Shown here: positions 18,945-38,594 of the stretch, in pieces
Layout: each line of letters begins with the position of its first letter
Position numbering within the stretch: position 1 is the first letter of the stretch
NCBI GenBank assembly: GCA_902618175.1
Contig: CACMZN010000009.1
Span: 1-59,971, forward strand
Length of the DNA stretch: 59,971 bases
Source of the DNA: an uncultured Verrucomicrobiota bacterium
GTDB taxonomy: Bacteria > Verrucomicrobiota > Verrucomicrobiia > Opitutales > Seribacteraceae
Direction: 5' to 3'
The notes under the pieces: model-generated
Database searches by the model: none
Seen by the model: the letters and a program-made list of their open reading frames with translations, nothing else
What the model was told of the DNA's origin: nothing
Program-made: the position numbers and the translations under genes

Positions 18945-18948
18945 ATCT

Positions 18949-21900: not shown

Positions 21901-22344
21901 CGGGATGACGGGAAGACCTTTTTCCTTCATCCTACTTAAGATTTCCACAAGTTCTCCGCTACGGTCCTTGTATTCTCCAAGTTTTTCGGCCAATTCGGAA
22001 TGAATGGGTACCCAAGTGAATTCTCCATTCTTTAACTCAAGAAATTCCTGATAGCTCTTCAATGCAGCTCTACAGTGGCCTTTGAGTAGATAACTACTGG
22101 GAAGCTCAGGTAGTAACCAATCGCTCTTATCACCCAAATTAGTTTGCTTGTTGGCAATTTGGTAAAGCTCATTGATTCTTGTTGCTGAATCCACATCCCA
22201 GATCTTTACGCAATCCGAAAACCCCAAAGGTTCCTTTTCTAGCATTGAGCAAAGTAGATCCAATGCTCTTATATAGGAACTGGCTTTACCACTTTGGTCC
22301 TTGTTGTTTGCAAGAACATAATTCGAATAAGCGTTTTTGTTCAT
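18949..22344 (-). CDS. mcrB: McrB-type AAA+ GTPase with EVE-like domain
   Basis: The C-terminal third is the McrB motor: Walker A GAPGTGKT (874-881), Walker B VFIIDEINRG (949-958) and the McrB signature MNTADRS (1006-1012), which marks a GTP-using McrB. At about 674-800 there is a PUA-superfamily, EVE-like reader (TLWLLAPGEGAKKWE, SGDLIFAKDGRKAVVGWGVV). Such domains read modified bases in other McrB proteins. The first 650 residues are unassigned, with one part resembling an MrcB N-terminal (DUF3578-like) domain around WITLNFGHWAVLRFQYNKGW. At 1131 residues it is long for McrB. It lies 208 bases after drmC on the same strand and 4 bases before mcrC. Confidence 0.92.
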   Translation of the reverse strand: MNKNAYSNYVLANNKDQSGKASSYIRALDLLCSMLEKEPLGFSDCVKIWDVDSATRINELYQIANKQTNLGDKSDWLLPELPSSYLLKGHCRAALKSYQEFLELKNGEFTWVPIHSELAEKLGEYKDRSGELVEILSRMKEKGLPVIPLDDGKDEPVFKYLEELDPFTFYSNFNRGVTEESRKGMWRMVKDELNLSSEIPTNFNGLPTYNMQNARLFWHAPDRDEDHIPLLWEFFAHVLTTTPEELDLDMMDRCLEKSGVGLANLTIGMYWIRPKTFVSADRKNREKASKLGISSAVETASDYQAWLITLLEKLEGKTMAFSADAHLEAIGSKVVEQDIDPGVPWKNMAEKYHYDKAYRNQAVEMLSQKLNTTLHCKAKSRSVTDESGNLRAACMTSLEEPYKLWCPLKLETELIENGHDNYIVLVVGHPATVIAVPIKEAIHWLDKIRVNEDHRCHLVKSKGEQFSLKTREAEEFPLSKFVIGTCALPQIVQESSKGGLGHPFDKTFDNPEHAYKVLDLFRKSILLLQDDEKQRQNQLALSFRTKRAGNWITLNFGHWAVLRFQYNKGWRITLPTPFAEELTGNQLESFSSDIDGVMYSFCSFEEQDFDLREVLKEYEKTVTKIAEKYSDWQGTPYSRTHHSLLYEATISREKRADILRKGFSGETNLGQASKTLWLLAPGEGAKKWETYQSEGIASIGWNASGDMENLGDKKSIREALDNNDPVNCSDQVVKMLHDFGKVMESGDLIFAKDGRKAVVGWGVVSSDYRLDTKVDAKNSDPHHHIRDVDWKSNERWDLPEGTKLLPEKSLTGYNEGEEVYNLLIEKYLREENAEIVELPGYSKEEALKELFLGEDKFDKIIQTLHRKKNLVLQGAPGTGKTFIAKRVAFTLMGVRDDSRARMIQFHQSSSYEDFIQGFRPNADGQFVLRDGVFHQFCQLAKGSPDDDFVFIIDEINRGNLSKVFGELMMLIEPDKRDPKYAMQLSYSEGENEPFYVPENLYMIGTMNTADRSLSLVDYALRRRFAFLEMEPSFQSPVFKETLSKRGVSSDMIKRIRTMMSELNKKIEEDAMNLGKGFRVGHSFFVPMSKVLDEKEWFNGIIEFEILPLIEEYWMDDPSGLTEARAILGLES

Positions 22345-22552: not shown

Positions 22553-23302
22553 TTAACGCCAAGGGGTGACGATTTGAGTCGTAACCAGAGCGTCCAAGTG
22601 GGCACGAAGCGTCTTTGGAGTGGGTCCTTCCCGAAACAGGACTCCCAGTTCCATGTTCCTATCTAAAGCTGCAGAGGTGAGGTTTGCACTGGTAATGAAA
22701 GCGAGAGTATCGTCAGCTACCACGCATTTTGCATGTACGGATGCTCTGACTTCGCGATCTGAAGGATTCCATACATAGAGCTTTGCCTGAGGGACTGCTC
22801 GCTTTAGTTCGGAAAGGCCATCCTGTGATACATTGCCGCCAGAGCTTTCAGGAGATTCAAGCAATACGGATACCTCAATTCCACGAGATATAGCTTCTGC
22901 AAGAGAATCCAAAACTCCATCTACTCGATACAGTACATAGCTTACCAAAAAAAGAGATTTTTGGGCCGAGCCAATAACCTGCTCAATTACCTGTCTAGTG
23001 TCTCGAGAGGGTACGAGAGTTGTATCTGGACCTGTCCAAACCAGTTCAACACTTTCTTTGTTTTTAGTTTCTTTGGTGATTGCAGAAACCAAAATAGCCG
23101 AAGAAATTTCTGCTGGGGTAATATTTGGATTTTCAAACCATGCAGCCTCCAGGGCTCGCAGTTCTCGATTACCAAAATCCTCAACAATAGTAGGAAATCC
23201 GCGACAGGAATCTAAGCGTCCAATGTTTTCAGAAAGAACCTTGAGCTTATCTGGGTGCAAGCTCTCTGTCGCCTGAACAAGCTTTTGCCAAAACTCAGAC
23301 AT
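22553..23302 (-). CDS. drmC: DISARM phospholipase D-like protein DrmC
   Basis: DrmC is the phospholipase D-superfamily protein of DISARM anti-phage systems. The 249 residues contain one HKD motif, HAKCVVADDTLAFITSANLT, with H190, K192 and D197, close to the C-terminus. An upstream PLD-type half begins around SLFLVSYVLYRVDGVLDSL. A single HKD implies dimerisation if it is a nuclease, though DrmC is reported as dispensable in some DISARM systems. Its ATG shares one base with the drmB stop (TAATG), so it is translationally coupled. It is the last gene of the DISARM operon. Assignment rests on the fold plus the drmB neighbour. Confidence 0.9.
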   Translation of the reverse strand: MSEFWQKLVQATESLHPDKLKVLSENIGRLDSCRGFPTIVEDFGNRELRALEAAWFENPNITPAEISSAILVSAITKETKNKESVELVWTGPDTTLVPSRDTRQVIEQVIGSAQKSLFLVSYVLYRVDGVLDSLAEAISRGIEVSVLLESPESSGGNVSQDGLSELKRAVPQAKLYVWNPSDREVRASVHAKCVVADDTLAFITSANLTSAALDRNMELGVLFREGPTPKTLRAHLDALVTTQIVTPWR

Positions 23303-25131
23303 TAAAAATCCTTGAAGAATGCAGCATCTTCGGAGCCGAAGGTCTTAACCAAGAGTGAGCGGTCAAGAAAACGGTTTCCAATTTCACAGGAGGTTTCGCC
23401 AACAAAGCTACATGCATGGCAAGCTGCTGAATGAAGGGATCTATCCTTGGCAGGATCGTGTTCGAAGCAAAGTGGATCAGAAGAGCAGATCGTGGCCCGC
23501 TCAAGTGCCTTACTTAAAATATTTTCAAGGTTCTCCTTTTTACCGAGTTCAACTAGTCCACCCAGTGTGCCATCTGAGTCAGCCGCTGCTGTATATAAAA
23601 GAATCCCAGCCATAGCTAGTGTGTCATTAGTGGAGTAAATGCGTTCGCGTATACTTGCGGCGTTGTAACCACATTCCAGTGCCATTTCACGGATCAAGAG
23701 ATGTGATAGGGTATGAAGCATAGCAAAGCGTACACCGGGAAATCCTTTTTCTGGATCTAGTTTTCTCGCATCCCTCCAGCCTTTGTATCCAGCCACAAGA
23801 AGTTCTTCTCTTTCTTTTACCGGAACTAAGTTCTCCCACTGTGCCAAGACGCTCTCATTGAATTTTATGAATATTCCCTCTCCGTGAACTTCATTTGCGG
23901 GTACCCAATCTGGCTGGCCATTGCTAAGTGCTGCCATCGGTGCGCGTTCGTCGGGGTCCAAGGTTTCCTCGGGTGCTTCCACACGGGTGAATCCGATAAG
24001 TGCATTCACTTCCCGTAATCTTTTAAGCAAAAGTACTTCCTCAACGACGGATGAATACCTTTGGGGCACATCCGTTTTTTCACTTAGGAAATGGGGTAGA
24101 TCAGCGGGTGCATCTGGCTTTGTGAGTACTTCCCACTCCGGGCTTTTTAAATCGCTGAAATGAACATTTGCACGATTGTTGCCAGATCTCTTTTTTTCAA
24201 TGCCTGCCCAAATTTCATCATTTGTGAATCGTTCTATTCCAGGAAGGGCATTTGTGCTCTTTAAAACATTAACCACGAGCTCAACTTGTTCTGCTTGTGT
24301 GATCATATTGAGACTACCCCAACCATCATCAATGATTTGAGACAAAGTATCTCCCTGCAGAGGAATAGCTAAGACAGAACGCTGTATGGGGAACCACCCG
24401 TTTGATGCACCAAGCAATACTGTTCTGCAGTTTTCAGTACATTCTTCGTACGAATCAAGATGCGGGTTTCTTCCCCTGCATCGTGGAAGATATTTCTCTG
24501 CGTTCTCTCCAAAGGCATTAACAAGAGATCTTCCTTTTCCACAGCCTTCGCATTTTACCCAAAGGTTTTCAGTCTGAAGAGAAGCTCCCCTTTCAAAAAA
24601 TCTTAATGTACCCGTACATGTGGATGGCCCACCATGCACATACCAATGCCAGGGGAAATCATCCAAATGTCCATTTCTGCAAGCCACAAGAAAACGGGCA
24701 GCCACCGCATCTGAATTTCCCCGATGCTTACAATTTTCATGGATGAAATGAATTTGGTCACGTCTATGAGGATTGTCCGCACCCTTTAATTTGAAGAGCC
24801 CACTGTCGTAGGAACCTAAAAGACCGCAGCGAACGCAACGTAGCCATCTGGGGAACGGATATACGGGGACCCCAATCTTTGCCTCAGCAGAAAAAGGATC
24901 AACCTTGTCATCTTCCACTACGGGTGGCTTTAAAAGTCGTTTAACCTGATCACCCAGTACCGATTGGACTTCTGCCAGTAGTCTGGCTTCCTGCAAAGGT
25001 TTGCACCTAGAAGGATCCCATTTATCCGTTCCCATCGTTAGGACGGAGATATTGGGTAGATCAATCAACGCACCTGGTCCGAAAGTCCAAAGCAGTTGGC
25101 TTGGGCGTACATCTCCAACAACTGTGCTCAT
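23302..25131 (-). CDS. drmB: DISARM DUF1998 protein DrmB
   Basis: DrmB is the DUF1998 protein that forms the core complex with helicase DrmA. The N-terminus (RPSQLLWTFGPGALIDLPN) is characteristic. Several cysteine pairs could bind zinc: CVRC at about 99-102, CEGCG in the middle, and the DUF1998 signature near the end (ACHACSFVGETSCEIGNRFL). The length of 609 residues matches known DrmB. The ATG overlaps the drmA stop in an ATGA junction, and the stop overlaps drmC. Together this supports a stoichiometric DrmAB complex as in described DISARM systems. Confidence 0.93.
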   Translation of the reverse strand: MSTVVGDVRPSQLLWTFGPGALIDLPNISVLTMGTDKWDPSRCKPLQEARLLAEVQSVLGDQVKRLLKPPVVEDDKVDPFSAEAKIGVPVYPFPRWLRCVRCGLLGSYDSGLFKLKGADNPHRRDQIHFIHENCKHRGNSDAVAARFLVACRNGHLDDFPWHWYVHGGPSTCTGTLRFFERGASLQTENLWVKCEGCGKGRSLVNAFGENAEKYLPRCRGRNPHLDSYEECTENCRTVLLGASNGWFPIQRSVLAIPLQGDTLSQIIDDGWGSLNMITQAEQVELVVNVLKSTNALPGIERFTNDEIWAGIEKKRSGNNRANVHFSDLKSPEWEVLTKPDAPADLPHFLSEKTDVPQRYSSVVEEVLLLKRLREVNALIGFTRVEAPEETLDPDERAPMAALSNGQPDWVPANEVHGEGIFIKFNESVLAQWENLVPVKEREELLVAGYKGWRDARKLDPEKGFPGVRFAMLHTLSHLLIREMALECGYNAASIRERIYSTNDTLAMAGILLYTAAADSDGTLGGLVELGKKENLENILSKALERATICSSDPLCFEHDPAKDRSLHSAACHACSFVGETSCEIGNRFLDRSLLVKTFGSEDAAFFKDF

Positions 25132-28100
25132 GATGCGTCCTCCGTTTCTTCGTTATCCTTCTTTTTGGGAACTGGATGAGTCCAGCTAGGTTCTCGATTT
25201 TGCGTCCTGTCTTGCATTACCAATCTTACTCCAGGTTCAACTTCACGCATCGATGTTGGAACGGTAAAATTATCCCATGTTTTAGAACCCGGTTGGTCCA
25301 GCAAACTAACGGTGTTATCTGATTGTTTCTTTGCTTTGTAGGCAAGATGCCCCTGCCGTGAGGTAACTCTTCTTACCCATTCATCAAATCTTTCCCGAGC
25401 CATATCTTTGGCAAGATTGGAAATTTCATTTTTATCCGTCACTTTGTGAGCACGATCTCCAAATGAGTTGGTTACTTCATCCACAGTCGGATCTGTTACG
25501 GAATTAAGGTTTTCGGCACCCAAGTTTGGAGCCAGTTGGTTTTTCTTCAGTCTGGCCATACTTACCATACCACCGGTCAATCCTCTGTCCATTGCTCTAG
25601 GCGTAAATGGGGTTACAGATTGTGCTTCCACATGCTTGTAGAAAGCACTGTGGTAATGTTCAAAAGTCTCGTAATGAGACAAGTCTCTGGGGCGAGCCCA
25701 AGTTAATGAAGTGAACACGAGCCCAGGGAATGACCGTCCGACCCGGCTGGTTGCCTGAATGTATTCTGCGGTATTCTTTGGCTGTCCGTTTACCAACATC
25801 AGACCTAACCGGTTCACATCCACTCCCACAGAAAGCATATTGGTAGCCAGTACGATATCGATTGCACGGGTTTCTTCCTTATCCCATTGAGAAACATAAA
25901 TATCTCCATTTGTGTCGTAATCCGCCCGAAATTGAACTTCCAAAGTGTCGAGTTTTTTGGGAATCGACGCACTGGATACCCGGGAGGTTAATTCCTCGAC
26001 CACGCTCACTTTTCTTTGTTTTAAACCGGGCCGTCTAACATGGCCCATCTCCACGCGGAAGGAACGCGTCTGCACATCATCCTCTGCGAGTCTTTTCATG
26101 CCCCCTAGCTCTCGCAAGGAGTTGAAGTACCCAACGGATGTCATCCATGGATCTGCCAATTTTCCGAACTTGCGGAAAACATCCTGGGAGGCAGTCAGTA
26201 GGGCTGTATAGAGTCTGATGAGTACGGCGGGTCTTGCACTTCCTGGTGAGCAAACACCAAGATACTGTCTGCCTGGCTTATCCTTAATCGATCTCTGTAC
26301 AGAAAAGAAATTATCCTCCACATCCAAACCATTGGGTGGAAAGATTGATACCTTGCGCATGAACACATTCTTCACCTGGTCCTGTGCCTTGCGAACCGTT
26401 GCCGTGGAAGCGATGATCTTTGGTCGGACAGATAATTCATCAAATGACCAAGTGGAAAGTTCGTCCACAGCCGTTTCGTACAATCCAACCATGGTTCCAA
26501 GTGGGCCACTGATCAGGTGAAACTCATCCTGAATAATCAGATCAGGCGGACGAATAGGAATAATCGACTGAGTGCTGGCAGGAGGTAATCCATTTTGAGA
26601 TCTGTGGCTTTGCTTGCACTCACAATCAGGCCAGGTCAATCCGTGCCTGCTGCATTCATGAGAGGCTATTCCAAAAAGATTCCGGATGGCATCATTCCAC
26701 GCCATCTGAGCAAACTTATCCACCGTCGCAATCATCATACTTGGTGGCTTGCGGTACATCTCTTCATCGACGACTTTCATCGGTATACCCAGATTGGGAG
26801 AGTTGCGTTCGGTAAACTCGCACCTGCTCAATTTGTCACCACAGAAGATCATTGTTCTTCCATATCCTCCGTTGTATTTGCTTACCTTAACATCTCTTTT
26901 TTCCAAGACCTCGCTACCACACCATGGGCAACTGTTGATCTGGCAGGGAGAAGAACCATAAGTTCTCTGTCCGTTCCTTACTGCATTGATGTAGTTTTCC
27001 GATTGCTCTGTCTTGTTTGGGGTAACGGATCCACCCACCCACAAGCCAATTGTAAAAGGCTCCTTGCCCCAGGTATCCTCCTCATTTCTTCGAATGACTT
27101 CCATAGCACAGATCAAAGTCGATGCCCGTTGGAATTGCTGGAGGGTTAGCAGACGAAGGGTATAACGCATGATGACCGACAAGCCCCTGGATGCATCGTA
27201 GCCACCAAGATTTCCCTGCAATCTACGAATCCCCATGGTAAATGCTGCTACGCCCAGGTATGCTTCCGTTTTACCACCACCTGTGGGGAACCACAGCAAG
27301 TCAGCATAAGCATCTAATGGTTCGGTTCTGTCCTTATGCTTAGGGTCTGCCAATGATGGAATGGACAAAAGAATGAACGCCAGCTGGAAGGGTCTCCACG
27401 AATGGTTCTTTCGGATGTTTACATCATCAAATGTTTTATTTGTCCCCCTGCGTGTTTCCATGGCAAACATACCACGCACGCGTTGGTCTGCCATGGACCG
27501 GTTGGCAAATTGAAAGGCCTGCAGTGCAATGGGATCATTTTCAAGTAGGTCTATCCCTTCCCTCAATCGGCTTAGTACTTTTCTGCACCTGTCTATGGCT
27601 ACTCCAGCAGCCCGATTATGTCCGACTACCTCTGTGCCTACACGGGCTTCCTGTTCTGCAATCCAATTTTCATAATCATCGGTGAGGACCGAGAGTGCTT
27701 GCTTTAATTGCTCCTTGTTCATGGATGCAAGCTGGCGCATATCCAGGAATCCCTCCTTTACCATGCGTTGCATTTCCGGCCTGTCCTCGGTGTTTAGACC
27801 AGGTGTCTCAGTTGTGGGTACCTCGTATTCAGGTACAACCACTGTTCGTACCTCGGTTGCTCTTTCACGATCCTCTTCGGTAGGGGAGGCATGAACAGAA
27901 ATTGTGTGGCCAACGGCAAACTCCACCTGCTTGCGATAGATCATTTCCAAAGTCTCCCTTTCGATCTCATCGACCGATGCATCCGTCTGTATTGGACGTT
28001 TACAAAAGATAGCCCCACCATCTTTGTCCCGTACAATGATCTCCGGCTGGAAGAGCCAAGCCTCATCCTGGTTTTCCTTGGGTAGCACCTGATTGTTCAC

Positions 28101-30380
28101 CAGGAAGATAGTGATCATGCGGTATTTTCCATCCACATCCTCACGGATTACTCCCTGTATACATACATTGGGACAAAGGCCATCTATCGCTACAGGTTTG
28201 ATCCATCCGGGTTTCAACTCCACGGATATTATTCCACCAGCAGATCTTCTTTTCCATGCCCGCAAGGGTGTGCCATCTTCTTTGGTCTCCGTCTCACTTG
28301 CCTGCTTGGTGTACCTTCCCCAAGTCGCCTCAATTTGCAATTCATTGACCGTTGCATCAACACATACCGTCATGCCCACGGATGAGGGGACGAAAGATTG
28401 ATTTTTTGCCGCATCTATCTGGCTGCTGTCATCATCATCTGGTTCATAAGCTTTTCCCGAGGTTGCTCCAAATTCCTGTCCGGGCAATGTCTGCCTGTTC
28501 GCATCATTTACTTTTTCAAAGGGCTGCAAATCCTCCGGCTCCTCTTCGGTTTCCTCCTCGTCCGGAGCGCCTGCACCCTGCAGGCCTTCGATGTTTTCCT
28601 CGGCTCCTCCATCCTTTCTTGGGGCCAGTTTCCCAACCAGGTAGCGATCGCGCACACTCATGCCCACAATCTCCTCTTCGGGGCCACAGGCCGGGCCGAG
28701 CAAGTCATCCATTGCGGCCAGCTTTACCAGTCTACGTGCATAGTTTTGGCTAGCTACAGATTTTTCATCCAGCATGGGGAGCCCGGTGTAATCCTTTCCT
28801 GTGGTTGCCTTGTATGCATTCTGGAAATCCGGCCAGGCTACTCGAGAAGTGATGCCTTTTTCTTCAACCTTTGAAAACCCAGCTTCTAAGACAGGTTTAT
28901 TATTTTCCAATCGTTCAATCCGATCGAAGTAAAAACCTGTATTTTCATTTCCGGCTCTTTTTCTGTAGAGCCTGCCAAACCCTATAATTTCTAAATTTTT
29001 ATTAAGAAGAATAAGAATGTCTTCCCTTAACGCACTGATGGCACTAAAGAGTGATCCGGCATAGGGTAGATCCAGTGAGAACCAATCAGTGGGGTTTTCC
29101 CACTCAGTTTTTACAAGCCATGCGTTTGGAGTGCTTTTTATCTCAACTGACTGCTCTGAGGTATTTTCATTGTTTATTTCCTCCTCCATCTCGATTTCTC
29201 CCGCCCGTTGTGCGATTACCACATTGGCAATTCTGCGAACAGTTTCAGTCATGCCATTTAGCTTTATTTTCTCTTTAAATACATCGGTCCCAAATTTAAC
29301 TGACAGTCTCCCAAGAAGTTCATCTAAAAAACTGCTTGAAGCTGAATTAACTTCGGAAAAGTCCATAACTAGCGGTGCCTCCATTTCAGGAAGGACCGCT
29401 TCAATCTTTCTTCTCAAGTATTTCGCAGGGGGGCGGCTACCCGTATTAGCACATTCAGCGGCAATATTCATTCCTCCCTGTTCCTCCAAGTCCTGTGCGG
29501 ATGCATCAATATAGCTCCAATTTCCACCTGCAATCCAGGTATCCCTCAAGTTCACCGGATTATCGGTTTTCATCTCCAGGCATAGTCCAGTTCCTTGAAC
29601 TTCTTCTATGTTGCGGGTGGAATTATTCTGACCATCAACCATATTAAACATGGCTCCACCACTCCACAAGGACAGGGTTCCTTCGTTTGCCCTGCAGATC
29701 TCAAGCGACCCTGCCATTCCATTGCCTTGTCCTACCTCAGGGTCACGAGTTACTCCTCGCTTCAATGCCTGTTCCAGTGCCTGAGCGTCAGATTCAATCT
29801 CACGAGTTGTTGCCAATGAGCCCCTTATACCTCGGCCCATATCGCATATGGCAACGCTCAATCGATTGAGCCGAGGGTAAGATTGAGCACACACCACTCC
29901 GGGGACGGGGGATTCCGCATGGATAACAATGTTGTCGATCAATTCGTTCACTGCCCATTCCATGGCCGGTACAAATTTATCACCGTCCCTGAACTGCCGA
30001 ATGACCAGCTCGCAAATCAAGTTTACCGTCTTGGCTACATCGTCACCGTCTTGGATTAGGCTGATTGGTATAAACCTCCCGATTTCTGGGTTGGTAGCCA
30101 AATTCTGTTCATCCAAGCCAAGTATTCGATGAAAGCCCATTCGCTGAAGGTAGTTGATTCTACCGTAATCTCCGCTGATTTTAAATTGGGTACCTTTGTT
30201 CTTTAGGTCTAAACAATGTGCAGTCAGAAAAGCCAATCCATCGACTTTTACGAAACTGGTAGCATTTACTCGAATTTCAACTTCATCGGGAGTTTCAACT
30301 CCCGTTACTGTCTCTTTCCATTTTTTTGAAGCAAGGGAGAAATCCAAATCTGGATTTGATGGAATTTCAAATAGTGCCAT
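25128..30380 (-). CDS. drmA: DISARM helicase DrmA with N-terminal STAS-GHKL-STAS module
   Basis: DrmA is the DNA-translocating helicase of DISARM. The canonical part starts near residue 555 (DLLGPACGPEEE, then RDRYLVGKLAPR at 577-588). It has Walker A LWFPTGGGKTEAYLG (1029-1043), a DEFH box IIQDEFHLISGPLG (1283-1296), zinc-type cysteines (CPWCG at 1151) and motif VI QATSRVGRSFPGL (1542-1554). The first 550 residues are additional. Residues 20-110 resemble a STAS domain (INYLQRMGFHRIL). Residues 125-275 form a GHKL ATPase with N box NELIDNIVIHA (145-155), G1 CDMGRGIRG (179-187) and G2 GQGNGMAGSLEI (217-228). Residues 318-380 resemble DUF4325 (LVMDFSEVNSASSSFLDELL). Residues 415-540 are unassigned. 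The total of 1750 residues is much longer than usual. The gene follows drmMI by 12 bases. Confidence 0.9.
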   Translation of the reverse strand: MALFEIPSNPDLDFSLASKKWKETVTGVETPDEVEIRVNATSFVKVDGLAFLTAHCLDLKNKGTQFKISGDYGRINYLQRMGFHRILGLDEQNLATNPEIGRFIPISLIQDGDDVAKTVNLICELVIRQFRDGDKFVPAMEWAVNELIDNIVIHAESPVPGVVCAQSYPRLNRLSVAICDMGRGIRGSLATTREIESDAQALEQALKRGVTRDPEVGQGNGMAGSLEICRANEGTLSLWSGGAMFNMVDGQNNSTRNIEEVQGTGLCLEMKTDNPVNLRDTWIAGGNWSYIDASAQDLEEQGGMNIAAECANTGSRPPAKYLRRKIEAVLPEMEAPLVMDFSEVNSASSSFLDELLGRLSVKFGTDVFKEKIKLNGMTETVRRIANVVIAQRAGEIEMEEEINNENTSEQSVEIKSTPNAWLVKTEWENPTDWFSLDLPYAGSLFSAISALREDILILLNKNLEIIGFGRLYRKRAGNENTGFYFDRIERLENNKPVLEAGFSKVEEKGITSRVAWPDFQNAYKATTGKDYTGLPMLDEKSVASQNYARRLVKLAAMDDLLGPACGPEEEIVGMSVRDRYLVGKLAPRKDGGAEENIEGLQGAGAPDEEETEEEPEDLQPFEKVNDANRQTLPGQEFGATSGKAYEPDDDDSSQIDAAKNQSFVPSSVGMTVCVDATVNELQIEATWGRYTKQASETETKEDGTPLRAWKRRSAGGIISVELKPGWIKPVAIDGLCPNVCIQGVIREDVDGKYRMITIFLVNNQVLPKENQDEAWLFQPEIIVRDKDGGAIFCKRPIQTDASVDEIERETLEMIYRKQVEFAVGHTISVHASPTEEDRERATEVRTVVVPEYEVPTTETPGLNTEDRPEMQRMVKEGFLDMRQLASMNKEQLKQALSVLTDDYENWIAEQEARVGTEVVGHNRAAGVAIDRCRKVLSRLREGIDLLENDPIALQAFQFANRSMADQRVRGMFAMETRRGTNKTFDDVNIRKNHSWRPFQLAFILLSIPSLADPKHKDRTEPLDAYADLLWFPTGGGKTEAYLGVAAFTMGIRRLQGNLGGYDASRGLSVIMRYTLRLLTLQQFQRASTLICAMEVIRRNEEDTWGKEPFTIGLWVGGSVTPNKTEQSENYINAVRNGQRTYGSSPCQINSCPWCGSEVLEKRDVKVSKYNGGYGRTMIFCGDKLSRCEFTERNSPNLGIPMKVVDEEMYRKPPSMMIATVDKFAQMAWNDAIRNLFGIASHECSRHGLTWPDCECKQSHRSQNGLPPASTQSIIPIRPPDLIIQDEFHLISGPLGTMVGLYETAVDELSTWSFDELSVRPKIIASTATVRKAQDQVKNVFMRKVSIFPPNGLDVEDNFFSVQRSIKDKPGRQYLGVCSPGSARPAVLIRLYTALLTASQDVFRKFGKLADPWMTSVGYFNSLRELGGMKRLAEDDVQTRSFRVEMGHVRRPGLKQRKVSVVEELTSRVSSASIPKKLDTLEVQFRADYDTNGDIYVSQWDKEETRAIDIVLATNMLSVGVDVNRLGLMLVNGQPKNTAEYIQATSRVGRSFPGLVFTSLTWARPRDLSHYETFEHYHSAFYKHVEAQSVTPFTPRAMDRGLTGGMVSMARLKKNQLAPNLGAENLNSVTDPTVDEVTNSFGDRAHKVTDKNEISNLAKDMARERFDEWVRRVTSRQGHLAYKAKKQSDNTVSLLDQPGSKTWDNFTVPTSMREVEPGVRLVMQDRTQNREPSWTHPVPKKKDNEETEDAS

Positions 30381-30392
30381 AGATTATAAAGT

Positions 30393-33300
30393 TTAGAAAA
30401 GTTCGGTTTGGCCTTGGGAAGATTTTTCCGCTTTGGCTTTTGGTTTCTTTTTGTCGTGCAGACCTTGGGCGACTTCTTCTTCGTAGCGTTTTTGGTTGAG
30501 CTCAAGCAGGCGGGCGAGGACTTCGTCATGCACTTCCTCGGGCCAGCGGTAACGCCAGGGTACCTTCTTTCCTTCTTCTACCTCGTAATCGGCGATGAAC
30601 TCGCAATCGGTTGAAATGTCTGTCCAACCATAGGCATCAAGCACCGCTCGGTCCATGGCGGCGTGGAGTTCGCGAAGCTTAAGAATGTCGGGGTGTGTTT
30701 CCTCAGGGTCATGAAAACGATTGTAAGTCTTGGTTAACCCTTCGTCGTTTCGGACCATCAGGTCAGCTCGAAACTCGTAGTAGGTTTTGCCTACTACCTC
30801 AAGGGTGGGCTCATTCTGCCAGTTTTCTAAAAAAGGAAAGTTTTCAAAGCAAGTAGTAGGTGTATATACAAGGTCATCTTTAAGTGTCGTCATGAAAAAA
30901 CGAGACCAAACTTCATGTACACTTGACTGAATAGTAGCAAAACTTGAATAAGTTTCGGCTGCAATTATCGTTAGATTACTTGAGAAAATCATTTTGCTGT
31001 CAAGAAAAGCAAAAGTGAAGTGTGCTGATGCTTGGGCACCTGCAACCAGTACTCTATTCAAATTTCTTAACGCTGAATAAAGAGCAGGTCTTGGATTCCA
31101 ATATTTCCACCACTCATAGACCATTCTAGGATACTTATCGCCATCTTTTTTAATTCTCTCAGGCTTAACTTTTTCCTCAATAATCTTCATGAGATCAGGC
31201 CATTGACGAGCGACATTTTCGTTCATTTCTTCAAAGTTGATAATGTATCTGGAATGATTGTGTTTTGGATGGTTTGCTACTTCTGCATAACCAATAAATG
31301 GGAAAATCCTTTCCTTATTTTTTGGATCGGATTGAACTAGCCTTTCCATCTCACTTACAGGTGTAGATTCGTTTTTCTTGTCTTTGTCGTTAAAAACAAA
31401 TCCTTTACTAAGAGGGATGACACCTTGAAAGCTTTTTGAGTTATTTGCCTCTAGGGACTCTGGACTTTCGCTTCCGCCAGTATGAAACAAGAATGCTGTA
31501 ATGTTTTTTACCTTTCTTATACCTATGGTTTTTTCTCCCCTGTAACGGCCTTTATAAACAAATACTAAGCTGACAATAACAGCAGCCTTTCCAGGCCAGT
31601 TAATCCTCTTTTGAGCTCTGTAAATTGTGCCAGAGTTAATGCAGATCCATGTAAGACCTGATTGTCTGGTATCTCCCTGGCTAATTGTATTAGTTGTCAC
31701 AAAGCCATCACAACCATTACTAGAAGTTAACTTAAAAGCTTTCCTGAAAAAATGTGCGGCTAGGTCAGCATTTTTTTTAGAATCAGGGTTCGTATAGACT
31801 AGCAAATCGTTATATCGACTCCCTAATATTTCTGAAACTCTTTTTCCTCCCTGATAAGGCGGATTCCCCACAAAGCCATTAAACCCACCATTTTCAAAAA
31901 CCTCCGGAAACTCCAATGCCCAATGAAATGGTTTTCGGGGAGCCTTCCCTGGCAATTGATCGATCGAGAGGTTGATCATAGTCTGAGTCTTGATCTCTTC
32001 TGCCGCATCCTCATTCAAGCGAAGGATGCCATCTGCCCGGGTAGATAATTGATCCAAGGATTCCTTGAGTTTCTTTTCCTTTCCTCCACAAATCAAGGCT
32101 TCTCCAATCATGGCATCAGATAGGAGTTCAACAGGGACGAGCTTACTCTTTGCCTCGGTATTTAGCTCGGCCATCTTCTCGACGTCGTGAACATCCCGAA
32201 TGGTAATCTCGCGAAGTTGCTTGCGTAACTCAACGGCAGAGCGAACGACCTCTCGAATCTCGTCTGCCGCATAGAGGGCTTGCTCATCTTCTTTGGGATG
32301 CATGGAAAGTGTGGTCAATTGCCTCAGGTCATGCAACCCGAGCAAGGCGTCTCCGCTGCGCAGGTTGTGATCGAGAAACCCGAAAGGCCGGCCTTTCTGT
32401 AGGGTCACTAACCAAATAGAGAGCTTGGCAAGCTCGACCGCCATAGGGTTCATGTCCACACCATAGATGCAACGCTCTGCGATGAGGCGACGTGCAACGA
32501 GCAAGCGATCATCTAATTCCTTGGGCATGAGCTCGGCACCGGATCCGGGCTCAAGAGCCAGTCCGTCCACATTTATTTCCTTGCCAGAATCTTCCTCAGT
32601 CTTCCACGCGTTTATAAGTTTTTCGCTGAGGTATCTGCAGGTGGCTACGAGGAAGGCGGCTGAACCCATCGCAGGGTCGCAAACCTTGAGGTCGAGAAGT
32701 TCGGCGGAGGAGCGGAGCTTCCATTGTTCCTCAGGCCAGCCCTCGGCGGGGCCTTCGTAAATGACGGGTGTTAAAGTTTTCTCCACGATGTCCCGGGCGA
32801 ACTCGGCCGGGGTGTAGTGGGCACCGGTGGCTCGCCTGCCTTCTCCGGGAACAATGGCAAACGAATTGGCCGGGTAGACCATGAGGGTGCCCCAGCTATC
32901 CTTACGAATCAGTCCGGCTAGGGGCAGAAGTTTGCGTGCGGATTCCTCGTCATTACCAAGGGCTTGAATGAGTGCTGGTAAGGCGGACTCCTCGGGCTCC
33001 TTTTTCAAAGCATTCTTGATTGCGGATACGGTCTTACCTGTTTCATCTGCTAGTTTCTTTGCTAGCTTAGCTTCATCCAAATCCAGAAGTTCAGATATGG
33101 GAATAATGGGGTTGGTTACAGTTTTGGAGCCGGAGAAGCCAATACTGAGCTCGTCCACTCGGTCGACGGTGTATTCCAAAAGACCTTCATAGACATGGCC
33201 GATCTGCTCCACATCTAGCCCTTTGTAGGAGAGCATTTGAGCACCTCCTTTTTGCTGGAGTACCTGAAGGGAGCGGAGAAGTAGAAGAACAGTGTGATTA

Positions 33301-34433
33301 TCAATGGGCAAAGGGTTGGCCGGTTCATCTTTCCAGTTTGTTCCGGGGGCACGGCCCTCGAGAAAGGGAAAGCGATCGGGATAGAAGAGACTGCCTCCGA
33401 GGGCAGGCAGGCGTAGCCCTTCATGCTCGGCACCCCCGTAGATCATACGAAAAGTTGAGAGTAAGCGGGACCATGCATCGAAGCGTTTTTCGAGAACCTC
33501 CGGGCCATGCTGATCGGAATCTTCCCGAAGCTGAGCACGAAGGTTGGAGAGGGCGTAGTTTTGATCGTAGAGGGGATCGCCAAGTAATAAAAGTTCGCGC
33601 TCTTCGGCACAAAGGGTGAAGACCAGGCGCATCATCACAGTGAGCCCAGCCTCGTACAATTGTTTGGGATCTACATCTTTTAGGAGTTCTCCATTTCTGT
33701 CCTGATCGGCACGGCCAAGGGCCCGCACAAGAACTTCCACGGCATGGCGGACCTGCTCGCCCAAAGTGTCGGTGACTTCTTCATGAAATTCGGTGGAGCG
33801 CTCAAGCAATTGATCCATCGTTTCCTCAGGAGGACCAAAGGCTCGACGAATATTTAAGAGAGAGCTGAAGGCTTTGAGAGTGACTGGTTCCTGCCACCAG
33901 ATACGGGCGTGCCACATGGCATAGCCAGATGTCTTGCCCACTGGGGCATTGACCAGCATCCATTCCTCCCCATTGGTGACGATACCGATTCGTACTTCTT
34001 CCGTCTTGCACCGTGCACGCATGATCTCCTCAGGAGATTCAACCGAGAGCGAGCCGGGGACGGGTTTGAGCAGGTTGGTGCCGGGGGCATAGGCGGTAAC
34101 GATGATGGCCGGCTTGTTCTCCCTTCCAATGGCCCTCATTTCCAAGGGCTCGTGAAGCTCGGAGGTGTCGACCTTGAGTTCTTCCCCATATTCCAGGGCA
34201 TCCTTCATGACCATGAGGATCCATTCACGATGAATGCCAAGTAAATCTGATTCCTTGTTTTCAACGACTTCCACCCATTCCTCGTAAGCTTGGCGAAGTC
34301 GTTGGCGGTCGTTGGTTACCAAGCCGTCAAGTCCCTGCGGGAAGACTTGTTGTAAAACAGGGATGGCAAGAAAGGGCCCGGCAATCTCAATGAGGTTAAA
34401 CCATTCGTAATGTTGATCGTTGGTAGCAGGCAT
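30393..34433 (-). CDS. drmMI: DISARM adenine-specific DNA methyltransferase DrmMI
   Basis: A 1346-residue N6-adenine methyltransferase of the large Eco57I/class 1 DISARM type. It has the linker GAHYTPAEFARDIVEKTL and AdoMet motif I DPAMGSAAFLVATCR (about 586-600). YGVDMNPMAVELAKLSIWL follows, and catalytic motif IV is FVGNPPYQGGKR (NPPY at about 857-860). A long N-terminal region precedes the methylase, and a C-terminal region probably recognises the target. The ATG at 34433 lies 4 bases after the drmD stop and starts at the conserved sequence, so the longer start at 34466 is rejected. In class 1 DISARM this enzyme marks self DNA. Its size and neighbours argue for DrmMI over an isolated type IIG enzyme. 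Confidence 0.9.
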   Translation of the reverse strand: MPATNDQHYEWFNLIEIAGPFLAIPVLQQVFPQGLDGLVTNDRQRLRQAYEEWVEVVENKESDLLGIHREWILMVMKDALEYGEELKVDTSELHEPLEMRAIGRENKPAIIVTAYAPGTNLLKPVPGSLSVESPEEIMRARCKTEEVRIGIVTNGEEWMLVNAPVGKTSGYAMWHARIWWQEPVTLKAFSSLLNIRRAFGPPEETMDQLLERSTEFHEEVTDTLGEQVRHAVEVLVRALGRADQDRNGELLKDVDPKQLYEAGLTVMMRLVFTLCAEERELLLLGDPLYDQNYALSNLRAQLREDSDQHGPEVLEKRFDAWSRLLSTFRMIYGGAEHEGLRLPALGGSLFYPDRFPFLEGRAPGTNWKDEPANPLPIDNHTVLLLLRSLQVLQQKGGAQMLSYKGLDVEQIGHVYEGLLEYTVDRVDELSIGFSGSKTVTNPIIPISELLDLDEAKLAKKLADETGKTVSAIKNALKKEPEESALPALIQALGNDEESARKLLPLAGLIRKDSWGTLMVYPANSFAIVPGEGRRATGAHYTPAEFARDIVEKTLTPVIYEGPAEGWPEEQWKLRSSAELLDLKVCDPAMGSAAFLVATCRYLSEKLINAWKTEEDSGKEINVDGLALEPGSGAELMPKELDDRLLVARRLIAERCIYGVDMNPMAVELAKLSIWLVTLQKGRPFGFLDHNLRSGDALLGLHDLRQLTTLSMHPKEDEQALYAADEIREVVRSAVELRKQLREITIRDVHDVEKMAELNTEAKSKLVPVELLSDAMIGEALICGGKEKKLKESLDQLSTRADGILRLNEDAAEEIKTQTMINLSIDQLPGKAPRKPFHWALEFPEVFENGGFNGFVGNPPYQGGKRVSEILGSRYNDLLVYTNPDSKKNADLAAHFFRKAFKLTSSNGCDGFVTTNTISQGDTRQSGLTWICINSGTIYRAQKRINWPGKAAVIVSLVFVYKGRYRGEKTIGIRKVKNITAFLFHTGGSESPESLEANNSKSFQGVIPLSKGFVFNDKDKKNESTPVSEMERLVQSDPKNKERIFPFIGYAEVANHPKHNHSRYIINFEEMNENVARQWPDLMKIIEEKVKPERIKKDGDKYPRMVYEWWKYWNPRPALYSALRNLNRVLVAGAQASAHFTFAFLDSKMIFSSNLTIIAAETYSSFATIQSSVHEVWSRFFMTTLKDDLVYTPTTCFENFPFLENWQNEPTLEVVGKTYYEFRADLMVRNDEGLTKTYNRFHDPEETHPDILKLRELHAAMDRAVLDAYGWTDISTDCEFIADYEVEEGKKVPWRYRWPEEVHDEVLARLLELNQKRYEEEVAQGLHDKKKPKAKAEKSSQGQTELF

Positions 34434-34437
34434 GTCT

Positions 34438-37400
34438 CTAGCGGGTAAAAAGATGTTCGGGTACAAGGAACTCCACGGCTACAGGGAAGGTGCGGTCGGT
34501 TGGTTCTTCATAACGGCGAAGGAGGTTTTTCTTTTCCTCTTGGCGTTCCTCAGGAATACGATCCAAGCGGGATTTTAAAGCATTGAGGTCGCGTTGCAGG
34601 GTCTCTCTCTCATCAGGCTGGAGCTTATCCATGAAGTCCAACTGTTCTGGCTTCTTGGAATTTTCCAATTCTTTATTGATCATTTTCTCCAGCTCATCGA
34701 GAAGCTTTTCCACATCATCGAGTTCTTTATCCCGTCGGCGTTCCAGGGTATTCATCAAAAACTGCAAACGTTCACGAGAGCGGGCATTGACGGCTTGCAT
34801 CACATTATCCTTGTTGGCCTGGAAACCACTTTGCAAGCGGTGAAAGAGGGAGTCGTCCGGAGTGGCAGGCTGGGCGGCCTCAAGCATTTCTTCTAATCTT
34901 CCAATGGTTCGCTCGCGAGCAAAGCCACTAGCTTTTAATTCGCCCCCGGCAAAGGTAAGTTCTTCATGCAAGCGGTAGCGTGTACCACCGGTAACCACGA
35001 GGCGGGACCAAACGATGACTTGTGGTTCCTGTGCGAGTGAGGATGGAATCATGCGAATGGAAACTCGGTGTAGATTGGCACTTTCAGGGGGTGCCCATAC
35101 TTCCATACGAAGCAGTCGAAGGCACATTTGCACCAGCTTGTGCTGGAGATGGGCAAGCACGACATCATCTCGACCTTCAACAATTTCATGATCAAAGGTG
35201 ATGGGCCGGCGTTTACCGTCGTGTGGGTCGATCAAACCAACGGTGGCTTGTTCCCAGGAACCAGTGAGCATGGGAACCTCAAAAGCATTGGACGAGCCAT
35301 TGAGGCCAGAGAGTGTGACTGGTTTGAGGGTTGGTTTCTCCGCAATTTCCAGAGCGATGGATACGGCACGCTCAATACGATCGGGGGTAATGTGAAAGTC
35401 TTTACGGGTCTGAAGAACTCGTTCATGCAAACGATCGATCCTTTGTTTGAGCTCTTTTTCAGCGGCCACATAGCGACGGGCAACCTCTGCTTTTTCTTCC
35501 ACGGATTTTGTATCCAGGGTGCGGCGGTTACCAAGCATGACTTCCTCGGCCTGCTTAATCAGTACAGGAGAAAGAGCACCGAGGTCTTCCCGCTGATTGT
35601 TTACCTTGCGGGCAAGAATGAGAAGGAACTCAAGATCGCCGTCGAGGTCGCCAGGGTTGGTCTCTTCTCCAACAGCATCCTGTGGGAGCTTACTACCGAC
35701 AGGGTGCCAAATGTGTACCTTGTCCTGCTTCTGTCCAAAGCGGTCGATCCTACCGTTGCGCTGCTCCAGCACATTGGGGTTCCAGGGTATCTCCACATGA
35801 ATCATGTAGTTACAATGATTCTGGAGGTCGATCCCTTCAGAGGCAGCATCGGTGGCTAAAAGAATACGGACGGGTGCTTTGCCGGGATGTGCCTGAAAGG
35901 CGGCCTTGATCTTTTCGCGCTCTTTGTCGTCGGTTCCGCCGTGGAGAGATTCGATTAAGTCACCTCCCCATCCATTGGAGGTAAGAATCTCGAAGAGCCA
36001 GGAATGAGTGGCACGATACTCAGTAAAGAGGATGACCCGGTTTTCATTGATTTGTCCGTTTGTCTTGAGATGTTGCTCAAGCCATTGAAGAATGGCATCG
36101 GCCTTGGAGTCCTTGCGATTGGCATTTTGATTGGCCCAGCCAAGAAGCTGATCGAGGATTTGTACCTGATCGACGGTCAGAGAATCTTCATTCTCAGTGG
36201 CGGCTACAATGGCATCCTCGATAGCCTGTTCGAACCTGGAGTCGCTAGCATAATCTTCTTCCGCCCGTTCGAGCGCTTTACGAAGAATACGCTCCTTCAT
36301 GGAGCCCTTAGTCCGGGGAGAAGCATTATGTTTCCCCTCGATGGTATCTTTGTGTTTTTGCAGGGTGGAGGCAAAAGCACGGGGAGAACTAAAGAGTCTC
36401 TTCTTTAACAGTTTTTGAATAAAGGCGGAACCGAGGCCTTGGCCGGATCGCATATCGCTGTATTGCTTGAGCAAGGAGTGAGCATTTTTTTCCTCGGCCG
36501 AATAGTTTACCTGAAGGGCATGGAGCTCGCGTTGAGCAAAGCCCGGGAGATCGCTTTTGAGACGGCGAACAATTAGACGCTTGCGAACTTTTTCTTCTGG
36601 CATGACACCACGCACGCAACTTTGGTCATCTAGTAGTTCAAGCAGTGCAGTGAAGGATTGCTGAAATCCATTGTGAGGAGTTGCACTTAAAAAGAGACGA
36701 TGCTCGAAATGGGGAGCAATTGTGCGAATGAGCTGAGTGCGGAGGCTTGGAATTGCGTAATTAAGAGAGCCGGAGGGAGAAACATTATGAGCTTCATCCA
36801 CTACCAGCACATCAAACTTGCGGGGGTAATTCGCTTGAGGAGGAAGGCAATCCTTCATCAGGCGTAATCCTTCCCCGGTCTTCATCCAATCCATCGATGC
36901 AATGAGGCGAGGGAAACTGGACCATGGGTTTGCGGTGATTCCTCTTTCCCTTCGTAACAGTTTGATAAACTCGGTATTAACGATTTTAAAATCCAGACCG
37001 AAACGGGAGTGCATTTCCACTTTCCATTTTTCCTGAAGGGAAGCGGGGCAGACGATAAGAACACTGCGTGCACGGTGGCGAGAAATCAGTTCCTGAATGA
37101 CTAGGCCTGCCTCAATCGTTTTTCCCAGACCCACATCATCAGCAATGAGCAGTTTCACTCGAGCCATATCAATTGCACGGACCAGGGGATCCAATTGGTA
37201 GTCCTTGATTTGTATACCACTACGGAAAGGGGCCTGAATGAAGGAACGATCGGCATTTACGGAACCACCCCAGCGGATGGCATCAAGAAAGGCTTCCATT
37301 CTCTGGTGCTCATCCCACCCGCTAATCGTTGGTAAACCTGCAGACTCTAGGATACGGGCACCAGGCTCAATTTCCCAAACGACTTGCAGCGTTTCATCGG

Positions 37401-37542
37401 ATGCATCTTCATCGAGTGAGACAAGGGTGACCAAATGCTGGGCATTGCTACCGCCGAATGCAGATTTACTGATTTCAGTAACGACCCATTGTCGCTTTCG
37501 TACTTCGACCAATTGGCCGCATTCGATGTTTGCAGTAATCAT
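34438..37542 (-). CDS. drmD: DISARM SNF2-family helicase DrmD
   Basis: A 1034-residue SWI2/SNF2 ATPase. Walker A is IADDVGLGKTIEAGLVI (about 133-149) and the Walker B box is VLVVDEAHNVSPSG (about 246-258). The C-terminal RecA lobe contains LLATDAASEGIDLQNHCNY and motif VI EQRNGRIDRFGQKQ. DrmD is the marker of class 1 DISARM and precedes drmMI there, as it does here. A predicted coiled-coil, Glu/Lys-rich region lies near the C-terminus (ELDDVEKLLDELEKMINKEL). Its ATG overlaps the stop of the cytosine methyltransferase gene (ATGA), so the two are coupled. It resembles RapA in the motor only; the RapA C-terminal domain is absent. Confidence 0.9.
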   Translation of the reverse strand: MITANIECGQLVEVRKRQWVVTEISKSAFGGSNAQHLVTLVSLDEDASDETLQVVWEIEPGARILESAGLPTISGWDEHQRMEAFLDAIRWGGSVNADRSFIQAPFRSGIQIKDYQLDPLVRAIDMARVKLLIADDVGLGKTIEAGLVIQELISRHRARSVLIVCPASLQEKWKVEMHSRFGLDFKIVNTEFIKLLRRERGITANPWSSFPRLIASMDWMKTGEGLRLMKDCLPPQANYPRKFDVLVVDEAHNVSPSGSLNYAIPSLRTQLIRTIAPHFEHRLFLSATPHNGFQQSFTALLELLDDQSCVRGVMPEEKVRKRLIVRRLKSDLPGFAQRELHALQVNYSAEEKNAHSLLKQYSDMRSGQGLGSAFIQKLLKKRLFSSPRAFASTLQKHKDTIEGKHNASPRTKGSMKERILRKALERAEEDYASDSRFEQAIEDAIVAATENEDSLTVDQVQILDQLLGWANQNANRKDSKADAILQWLEQHLKTNGQINENRVILFTEYRATHSWLFEILTSNGWGGDLIESLHGGTDDKEREKIKAAFQAHPGKAPVRILLATDAASEGIDLQNHCNYMIHVEIPWNPNVLEQRNGRIDRFGQKQDKVHIWHPVGSKLPQDAVGEETNPGDLDGDLEFLLILARKVNNQREDLGALSPVLIKQAEEVMLGNRRTLDTKSVEEKAEVARRYVAAEKELKQRIDRLHERVLQTRKDFHITPDRIERAVSIALEIAEKPTLKPVTLSGLNGSSNAFEVPMLTGSWEQATVGLIDPHDGKRRPITFDHEIVEGRDDVVLAHLQHKLVQMCLRLLRMEVWAPPESANLHRVSIRMIPSSLAQEPQVIVWSRLVVTGGTRYRLHEELTFAGGELKASGFARERTIGRLEEMLEAAQPATPDDSLFHRLQSGFQANKDNVMQAVNARSRERLQFLMNTLERRRDKELDDVEKLLDELEKMINKELENSKKPEQLDFMDKLQPDERETLQRDLNALKSRLDRIPEERQEEKKNLLRRYEEPTDRTFPVAVEFLVPEHLFTR

Positions 37543-38594
37543 ACTTTGCTTAAAAGGGATTCAGTGTGTTTGACCATCGCCTTGCCGAGAGATTTTCCGA
37601 GAGCGGGAGGAACGGCATTACCAATCATCCTGCCAACAGCTCCACGAACAAGCGGCTCCCCAGGTTTTATAAACTTGTAGTTTTTGGGAAAACTCTGGAG
37701 TAGGGCGGCTTCCCGCAAAGTCATGGCCCGATCTTGTTCCGGGTGGCCAAAGCGCCCATTACCCAGACCCATGCAGAGGGTAGTGATGGTTGGAGCGGGA
37801 CGATCCCACCACATACGACCGTAAATCGAAACGTAGCGTGAGCCACTCTCCCTTCTGTAACAATCTGGCAGTAGTTCATCCGGCCAATCTTTACGACTGC
37901 CTCCATCGTGCGGGGTATGCCTGATTCGACGGAGGTTCATGTCCGAGAGTTTTGCCGCAACATGTAGGTGGTCGGATGCATGTTCCTGTCCACTTTCTAG
38001 TGAAGGAAGGTCTTGAATCGCAGAGCGGACGGTTTTTTGCTTCTTTTCGTTTGAGAAGTCTCCGGAAGGGATACTGATTGGTCCGAGTTTGGATGCAATG
38101 AGTACAAATCTCCTTCTAAATTGAGGAACCCCGTGCTCTTCACACTTAACAATCCCATGATCAAATTGATAACCCAATGATTTCAGTACCTTAAGAAGAT
38201 TGCTAAAGAGTAGGGCACCTTTTTGAGGAAGCTCAGGTACATTTTCCATCAAAACCAATTCCGGCTCTGTGGATTTTACCAATCGAGTAAAATGGCTTAA
38301 TAATCCCCAGTCCTCGTGCTTTTTCTGGCCATTGGTTAGCTTGGAAAAAGGCTGGCATGGGCAGCACCCGGCGAGTAGGCGCACCTCAGCATCTTTCCAA
38401 AGTGCACTTAGCTCAGATGCCGTTACTTTTGAAACACACTGACGGATGAATTTGGTCTTTTTATGATTTGCCTCAAAGGGAAAGCGAGAATCTTCATCTA
38501 TATCGATACCTGCAATAACATCTATACCAGCCTTCAATAGCCCATGAGTCAGGCCACCTGCACCACAAAATAGATCTACCGCTTTAATATGCAC
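37539..38594 (-). CDS. C5-cytosine DNA methyltransferase (DrmMII-like)
   Basis: A 351-residue 5-methylcytosine methyltransferase with all main motifs. Motif I is VDLFCGAGGLTHG. The catalytic motif IV is GCCPCQPFS, with the nucleophile Cys at 80. Motif VI is ENV at about 117-119, motif IX is RPAPTITT, and motif X is RMIGNAVPPALG. The start is a GTG at 38594; no in-frame ATG is available. It heads the DISARM operon and is coupled to drmD by a 4-base overlap. Class 2 DISARM uses a cytosine methylase (DrmMII), while class 1 uses DrmMI and DrmD, so having it here is a mixed layout. It may protect host DNA from DISARM, or belong to a separate restriction activity. Confidence 0.93.
   Translation of the reverse strand: MHIKAVDLFCGAGGLTHGLLKAGIDVIAGIDIDEDSRFPFEANHKKTKFIRQCVSKVTASELSALWKDAEVRLLAGCCPCQPFSKLTNGQKKHEDWGLLSHFTRLVKSTEPELVLMENVPELPQKGALLFSNLLKVLKSLGYQFDHGIVKCEEHGVPQFRRRFVLIASKLGPISIPSGDFSNEKKQKTVRSAIQDLPSLESGQEHASDHLHVAAKLSDMNLRRIRHTPHDGGSRKDWPDELLPDCYRRESGSRYVSIYGRMWWDRPAPTITTLCMGLGNGRFGHPEQDRAMTLREAALLQSFPKNYKFIKPGEPLVRGAVGRMIGNAVPPALGKSLGKAMVKHTESLLSKV

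Follow-up and report, generated by a model that had tools for sequence, protein, structure and literature searches.

The fused drmA gene and its DISARM operon

The stretch of DNA analyzed here (the window) comprises 59,971 nucleotides of contig CACMZN010000009.1 from an uncultured Verrucomicrobiota bacterium of the Seribacteraceae and carries a DISARM defence operon encoded entirely on the reverse strand. In the direction of transcription, the genes identified via PADLOC, Pfam and NCBIfam were a C5 cytosine methyltransferase, drmD, drmMI, drmA, drmB and drmC (Table 1). The drmA reading frame is open throughout its 1750 residues and joins a STAS-GHKL-STAS module, the second STAS-like domain being of the DUF4325 type, to the N-terminus of the DISARM helicase. 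This covalent attachment had been proposed in an earlier reading of the sequence (the original prediction) and was confirmed by profile and fold matches, which included significant matches for both GHKL and STAS. A DISARM-family DrmA, adjoining drmB and drmC genes, and drmD and drmMI in the same operon together place the locus in class 1. We take drmD and drmMI to be markers of class 1 and the C5 methyltransferase to be a marker of class 2. We regard the locus as a genuine class 1 DISARM that departs from the known form through a new combination of parts, rare but found twice, and not as a separate new system.

Table 1. Positions in the window of the DISARM genes and of the parts of the fused DrmA protein
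Feature	Positions	Strand	Evidence
C5 cytosine methyltransferase, also DrmMII-like, operon head	37539..38594	-	PF00145 E 1.8e-54; PADLOC MTase_II and DrmMII
drmD, SNF2-like helicase	34438..37542	-	PADLOC DrmD, 1357 bits
drmMI, type IIG-like methyltransferase	30393..34466	-	PADLOC DrmMI, 1673 bits
Fused drmA, 1750 aa	25128..30380	-	NCBIfam NF038325 DISARM_DrmAS, 1429 bits (cut-off 950); PADLOC DrmA PDLC02567
N-terminal STAS-like domain, residues 1-92	30105..30380	-	
Phe43, aligned to Trp53 of one VapK-like kinase	30252..30254	-	hhalign alignment
GHKL (SpoIIAB/CapK/VapK-type) kinase-like domain, residues 100-274	29559..30083	-	N box 146-154, G1 180-184, G2 218-221
C-terminal STAS-like domain (DUF4325, VapS-like), residues 311-400	29181..29450	-	Pfam E 2.5e-11
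Ser349-Ser350, predicted phospho-acceptor site	29331..29336	-	VapS Ser column; helix start
In-frame ATG (Met398) behind GGGAG	29187..29189	-	sequence; near starts of unfused DrmA
Ordinary DrmA part, residues 415-1750	25131..29138	-	7s9v aligned to 415-1743
Ordinary class 1 DrmA N-terminal domain (EVE-like), about residues 415-545, end approximate	28746..29138	-	7s9v alignment; name from PMC12458937
drmB	23302..25131	-	PADLOC DrmB
drmC, PLD nuclease-like	22553..23302	-	PADLOC DrmC, PF13091

Serratia DrmA (7s9v chain A, 1325 aa) aligned from its residue 8 to residues 415-1743 with 1528 bits, and the alignments of the eight nearest orthologues without the fusion (53-60% identical, same phylum as the window; open frames of 1254-1433 residues) began at residue 402 or later. 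The starts of two of these orthologues, MSDIIEQNAWLI and MDDNKNSNAWLV, locate the beginning of DrmA relative to NAWLV (418-422) in the window protein. Class 1 DrmA opens with an EVE-like domain followed by a trigger loop (PMC12458937). As judged from these alignments, starts and domain order, the added part extends from residue 1 to about residue 405. Ordinary DrmA therefore begins at about residue 408-415 and not near residue 560, as originally predicted, and the 145 residues before 560 are ordinary DrmA. The in-frame ATG of Met398 may be a relic or a live internal start; the second fused protein described below also carries a methionine at the place where DrmA would begin.

The PADLOC-DB DrmA model PDLC02567 has 1750 positions and matched residues 1-1750 with 4231 bits, while the window protein scored 4037 against itself in a separate search. 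From this length and score we infer that the model was built with the window protein or a near copy of it, so that the fused protein is probably already catalogued there; no remark on its architecture was seen in that database. Among the matches listed in full-text literature searches, no fusion of DISARM or DrmA with a GHKL, STAS or kinase module was found. The terms GHKL, STAS, HATPase, histidine kinase, DUF4325 and Bergerat are all absent from the main text of PMC12458937; the text of PMC13373217 names DISARM once, for other regulators, and contains neither "fusion" nor "DUF4325". The original claim that no DISARM with this layout had been described thus held for the papers listed, but the fused protein is probably represented in PADLOC-DB.

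The module resembles a kinase and its STAS substrate

The GHKL boxes, predicted at residues 145-155, 179-187 and 217-228, and the second STAS-like segment, predicted at 318-380, were all recovered (Table 1). Residues N150, D180, G182, G184, G219 and G221 were invariant in all 26 rows of the module alignment (A2). When the predicted model was overlaid on known structures, the fold of the GHKL domain was nearest to the anti-sigma kinases SpoIIAB and RsbW; the aligned SpoIIAB chains were only 15-17% identical to it. In a comparison of the module profile with the PDB, the N-terminal part matched SpoIIAA with E 0.1 and SpoIIAB gave E 0.06, while the best match was Escherichia VapS (9z7o) on the DUF4325 part (E 1.1e-5). 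The RsbW-like identity originally proposed therefore stands for the fold; the closest studied relatives found are the kinase/substrate pairs CapK-CapS and VapK-VapS of immune loci (PMC13373217).

Profile comparisons supported both halves of this assignment. The 26-row alignment matched nine kinase-like proteins over residues 8-282 (prob 99.9, E 9.8e-37) and eight separate STAS proteins over residues 311-400 (prob 98.3, E 2.5e-14), each in a single comparison in which most rows had been recruited via the module or its relatives. A small STAS gene lies directly downstream of six of the nine kinase-like genes. A search with a piece of VapS, which did not recruit via the module, led to a kinase-STAS-PIN gene row on plasmid P5 of Deinococcus gobiensis, and in this independent comparison the module matched the VapK-like kinase with E 6e-13 (29% identity over 143-273). 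In the predicted model, the first strand of the N-terminal STAS-like domain opens the chain, and the module closes with the DUF4325 domain; neither a CapK-type N-terminal helix-turn-helix nor a CapS-like winged helix-turn-helix was found in it.

In the alignment with 9z7o, the VapS serine is chain residue 66. With 134 residues in the chain and the VapS of PMC13373217 ending at 116, this residue would correspond, counted from the lengths, to the phospho-acceptor Ser48 of that work. The column falls on Ser349 of the window protein, the first residue of helix 349-363 in the predicted model. Both Ser349 and Ser350 were invariant in the 26 module rows, which are subject to search bias, and the Ser349 column holds serine in six of the eight separate STAS proteins.

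In the published systems, single-stranded DNA is the cue for CapK, which phosphorylates a serine of a STAS domain, while VapK (STAS-GHKL, F54) and VapS (S48) are the proposed controllers of the PIN toxin VapC (PMC13373217). The vapKSC operon conferred about 2-log protection against one phage, which was abolished by F54A and by S48A; the response to single-stranded DNA reported there concerns CapK, that of VapK not having been part of the work (PMC13373217). Phe43 of the window protein is a possible counterpart of the aromatic residue contacting single-stranded DNA (CapK W68, VapK F54), as suggested by alignment to a VapK-like kinase rather than to the studied CapK or VapK.

Unfused modules beside restriction loci

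The module of the window belongs to a close clade of nine members (support 100), six of which are located within or next to loci of DISARM or another restriction-like kind. Two of these, the window and L029, are fused to DrmA. The others occur in or beside loci with a type IV-like enzyme and type I genes for methyltransferase, specificity and restriction (L027), with hsdR-hsdM-hsdS (L028), with an SNF2 helicase like DpdE/DrmD, a DrmMI-like gene and PDC-M07AB (L030), and with PDC-M27ABC, consisting of a PLD and an SNF2 helicase (L031, same contig as L017). At L032 and L033, four open reading frames (ORFs) were examined and none matched a PADLOC family. Outside the close clade, one nearby ORF was considered at each of eight loci, and these comprised four housekeeping genes, two without a family, one ResIII and one IrrE-like peptidase. 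Linkage to defence was thus seen for the close clade and not for the whole module family.

The modules of L027 and L028 are 90% identical. The only DNA similarity found between these otherwise unlike restriction-modification loci was one 1412-base stretch, 85% identical, at the module gene (L027 9669-11080, L028 3718-5127), which suggests that the module is exchanged as a cassette among restriction-modification loci of Myxococcota and Acidobacteriota. At L028 the stop codon of the module overlaps a candidate hsdR start (ATGA), an arrangement one step short of fusion.

Searches of the phylum returned module-like matches in ten other genomes; in five of these, a small STAS gene comes after a gene for a kinase-like protein (L019, L020, L022, L025 and L026). 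By eye, a PIN-like gene comes next after the STAS gene at L022 and L026, and the kinase of L025 opens with a helix-turn-helix-like stretch. At L026 (1037-7810), HsdR/HsdM-like genes are followed by the kinase, STAS and PIN-like genes, by eye a vapKSC-like set behind a type I restriction-modification-like set. At L030 (2-9877), an ORF resembling the DruE C-terminus, the DpdE/DrmD-like SNF2 helicase, the DrmMI-like gene and PDC-M07AB form a row before the module gene that is possibly an undescribed mixed system.

Frequency and origin of the fusion

A second fused gene was found among 35 loci. It encodes 1736 aa in Robiginitomaculum sp. NORP61 (L029), a member of another phylum, where the fusion is in frame and the operon repeats the six genes of the window and their order, as confirmed in the whole genome. 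In the phylum of the window, 17 of 387 genomes matched at E 1e-30 or better, 16 with DrmA and one (G132) with the module only. Over four samples, DrmA was present in 16 of 387, 9 of 385, 21 of 376 and 54 of 349 genomes, a total of 100 that leaves out the module-only genomes G132, G742, G814, G1268 and G1402 and includes DrmA fragments, some of them cut by contig ends so that the N-terminus is not visible; mostly the best two candidates per genome were scored. The fusion was present in two of these 100 genomes, both of them genomes around which the samples were drawn, and was seen in none of the other 98, some of which hold fragments lacking a visible N-terminus. The module is accordingly not an ordinary N-terminal domain of most DrmA proteins, the reading that would have spoken against the original prediction. 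Among plasmids, 88 records matched DrmA and three matched residues 1-560 with a match reaching the module, none of these three in a gene annotated as drmA. No match to the window drmA was found in 26 other genomes of the genus or 41 other genomes of the family, many of them incomplete, and we therefore regard the gene as accessory.

In a quick tree of DrmA cores (15 rows, L072 dropped beforehand), L029 grouped with Microvirga and G682 (support 99), and a single clade of the two fused cores was rejected (approximately unbiased test, p 0.002). In the module tree, built from 25 of the 26 rows of A2 with L049 left out, the two fused modules paired with support 87, which is not decisive. Since the cores do not form one clade and the modules pair, the data leave standing both two acquisitions from the same module branch and an old fusion with many losses.

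A proposed switch and its alternatives

On the architecture, the homologies, the intact GHKL motifs and fold, the serine at the acceptor position, the recurrent fusion and the defence linkage of the close clade we base the reading that a class 1-type DrmA gained an N-terminal CapK/VapK-CapS/VapS-like kinase-plus-substrate switch controlling DISARM, to which we give about an even chance. The module would then gate DrmA, its STAS-GHKL half acting as the kinase and its DUF4325 half as the STAS substrate. At rest, unphosphorylated DUF4325 would contact the remaining DrmAB or DrmC and keep the complex off. By analogy with CapK, and with loose support from the Phe43 alignment, the trigger would be single-stranded DNA in the STAS/GHKL groove, upon which the kinase would phosphorylate Ser349 (or Ser350) within its own chain or in the partner of a dimer; this would break the contact and set DrmAB free to load on phage DNA. 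A change in DUF4325 could be relayed to DrmA, since the last module helix of the predicted structure (379-409) ends close to residue 415; the modelled piece ended at residue 410 and confidence was lower there. DrmAB is autoinhibited by its trigger loop, which 5'-overhang DNA dislodges (PMC9142583), and both halves of the fused protein may for this reason read the same kind of DNA. One published explanation for the off-state of DISARM in the uninfected cell invokes the trigger loop and DNA methylation. More tentatively, the fused protein may unite sensor, kinase, substrate and effector in one chain, in which a serine kinase activated by single-stranded DNA licenses the DISARM helicase via its own STAS domain, while the module, where it is a separate gene that overlaps hsdR, does the same for type I restriction motors, making the module a portable phospho-switch for restriction-type defence.

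Several observations weigh against the gating switch. By Foldseek E-value, MutL (5.3e-5) ranked above SpoIIAB (4.0e-4) for the GHKL domain, although the MutL overlay was poor. Three of the nine kinase-like proteins (L021, L099 and L100) have no small STAS gene directly behind them. The aromatic residue in the Phe43 column is loosely kept, being present in seven of nine close members and in one of the 15 distant rows that have a residue in this column. In two of the eight separate STAS relatives (L020 and L098) the Ser349 column holds Gln with serine in the next column, which makes Ser350 an alternative acceptor. Furthermore, the module is not essential to DISARM, as 98 of the 100 DrmA-bearing genomes were without the fusion, and it is not defence-specific in general, as its neighbours outside the close clade were mostly housekeeping genes.

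Instead, the module could be a kinase whose real target is a separate protein, be it a repressor, an anti-sigma factor or a STAS protein of the host. It would then control expression and not the helicase, and the fusion would merely tether it to the product of the operon. RsbW-type kinases act on separate partners. CapK, too, phosphorylates a separate repressor, CapS (PMC13373217). We consider this explanation unlikely. Against it, the window protein, L029 and the separate-gene relatives of A2 already carry a VapS-like domain as part of the chain, and the module finishes at the STAS domain without a CapS-like winged helix-turn-helix. Somewhat less probable still, the GHKL domain could be not a kinase but a clamp of the MutL or GyrB kind, driven by ATP, that dimerizes DrmA around DNA, with the STAS domains serving only as dimer or scaffold parts; this reading has in its favor the Foldseek ranking of the MutL N-terminal domain, the presence of GyrB and topoisomerase ATPases among the structural matches, and the fact that DrmA works on DNA. 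We doubt more strongly that the module limits self-damage by switching DISARM off, not on, when host single-stranded DNA accumulates in repair. A restriction-like system needs restraint, CapK reads single-stranded DNA arising from DNA repair (PMC13373217), and an effect on DrmA could have either sign; in both CapKS and VapKSC, however, phosphorylation de-represses or releases the effector (PMC13373217). An artefact, in the form of a missed stop codon or an assembly join of neighbouring genes, would fit the position of the joint, where the one protein ends and the other begins and an in-frame ATG is left close by, but is very improbable given the same in-frame fusion in the same operon of a second genome of another phylum and the end-to-end match of the 1750-position PADLOC model.

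Other genes of the island

Genes for an McrB-type AAA protein and McrC (17916-22344, reverse strand; Pfam, PADLOC) lie directly behind drmC, and the DISARM island therefore also carries an McrBC-type restriction system. A small EVE-domain protein is encoded near the island (41007-41492, forward strand; PF01878, E 9e-7), and between its gene and the DISARM operon lies a class III cyclase gene (PF00211; 39114-40436, reverse strand). The C5 cytosine methyltransferases heading the two fused operons (L029 1403-2614 in the second) are 51% identical, and each fused operon encodes two methyltransferases, the C5 enzyme and DrmMI. A DISARM operon on plasmid pR24_2 of Microvirga terrae (L015 6402-8816) has two genes inserted between its MmeI-like gene and drmA, one a Methyltransf_35 gene and the other a GHKL gene of a different kind (HATPase_c_3).

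Comparison with known systems

The locus shares its gene set with the class 1 DISARM of Serratia DrmAB (PMC9142583), DrmB, DrmC, DrmD and DrmMI being present and residues 415-1743 of DrmA alignable to almost all of 7s9v, but differs from it in the extra kinase/substrate module of about 405 residues and in the C5 methyltransferase preceding drmD in both fused operons. DrmA is a member of the YprA family of defence helicases, in which class 1 DrmA has the EVE-like N-terminus and trigger loop; the section on extra domains in PMC12458937 names none with GHKL or STAS. With the SpoIIAB/SpoIIAA and RsbW/RsbV switches the module shares the GHKL fold of that family; in contrast to them it is joined to a DNA helicase, and no sigma factor is among the identified operon genes.

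The closest likeness is to CapK-CapS and VapKSC, to which the STAS-GHKL part is homologous over residues 8-282 and the STAS substrate is homologous with the position of the acceptor serine retained. Linkage to immune and restriction-modification loci is also common to them, 88 of 443 capKS pairs adjoining restriction-modification systems (PMC13373217). Unlike these pairs, the window protein has no CapK-type helix-turn-helix, CapS-type winged helix-turn-helix or separate substrate gene, and it is flanked by drmMI and drmB and not by a vapC PIN nuclease gene. The fusion suggests a helicase or translocase as the partner of the separate modules beside type I restriction-modification genes. Kinase and substrate here form one chain joined to a helicase and, if the proposed switch is true, this covalent pair would place a restriction-type motor under phosphorylation control, whereas the control exerted by CapKS is transcriptional and that by VapKSC is of a toxin.
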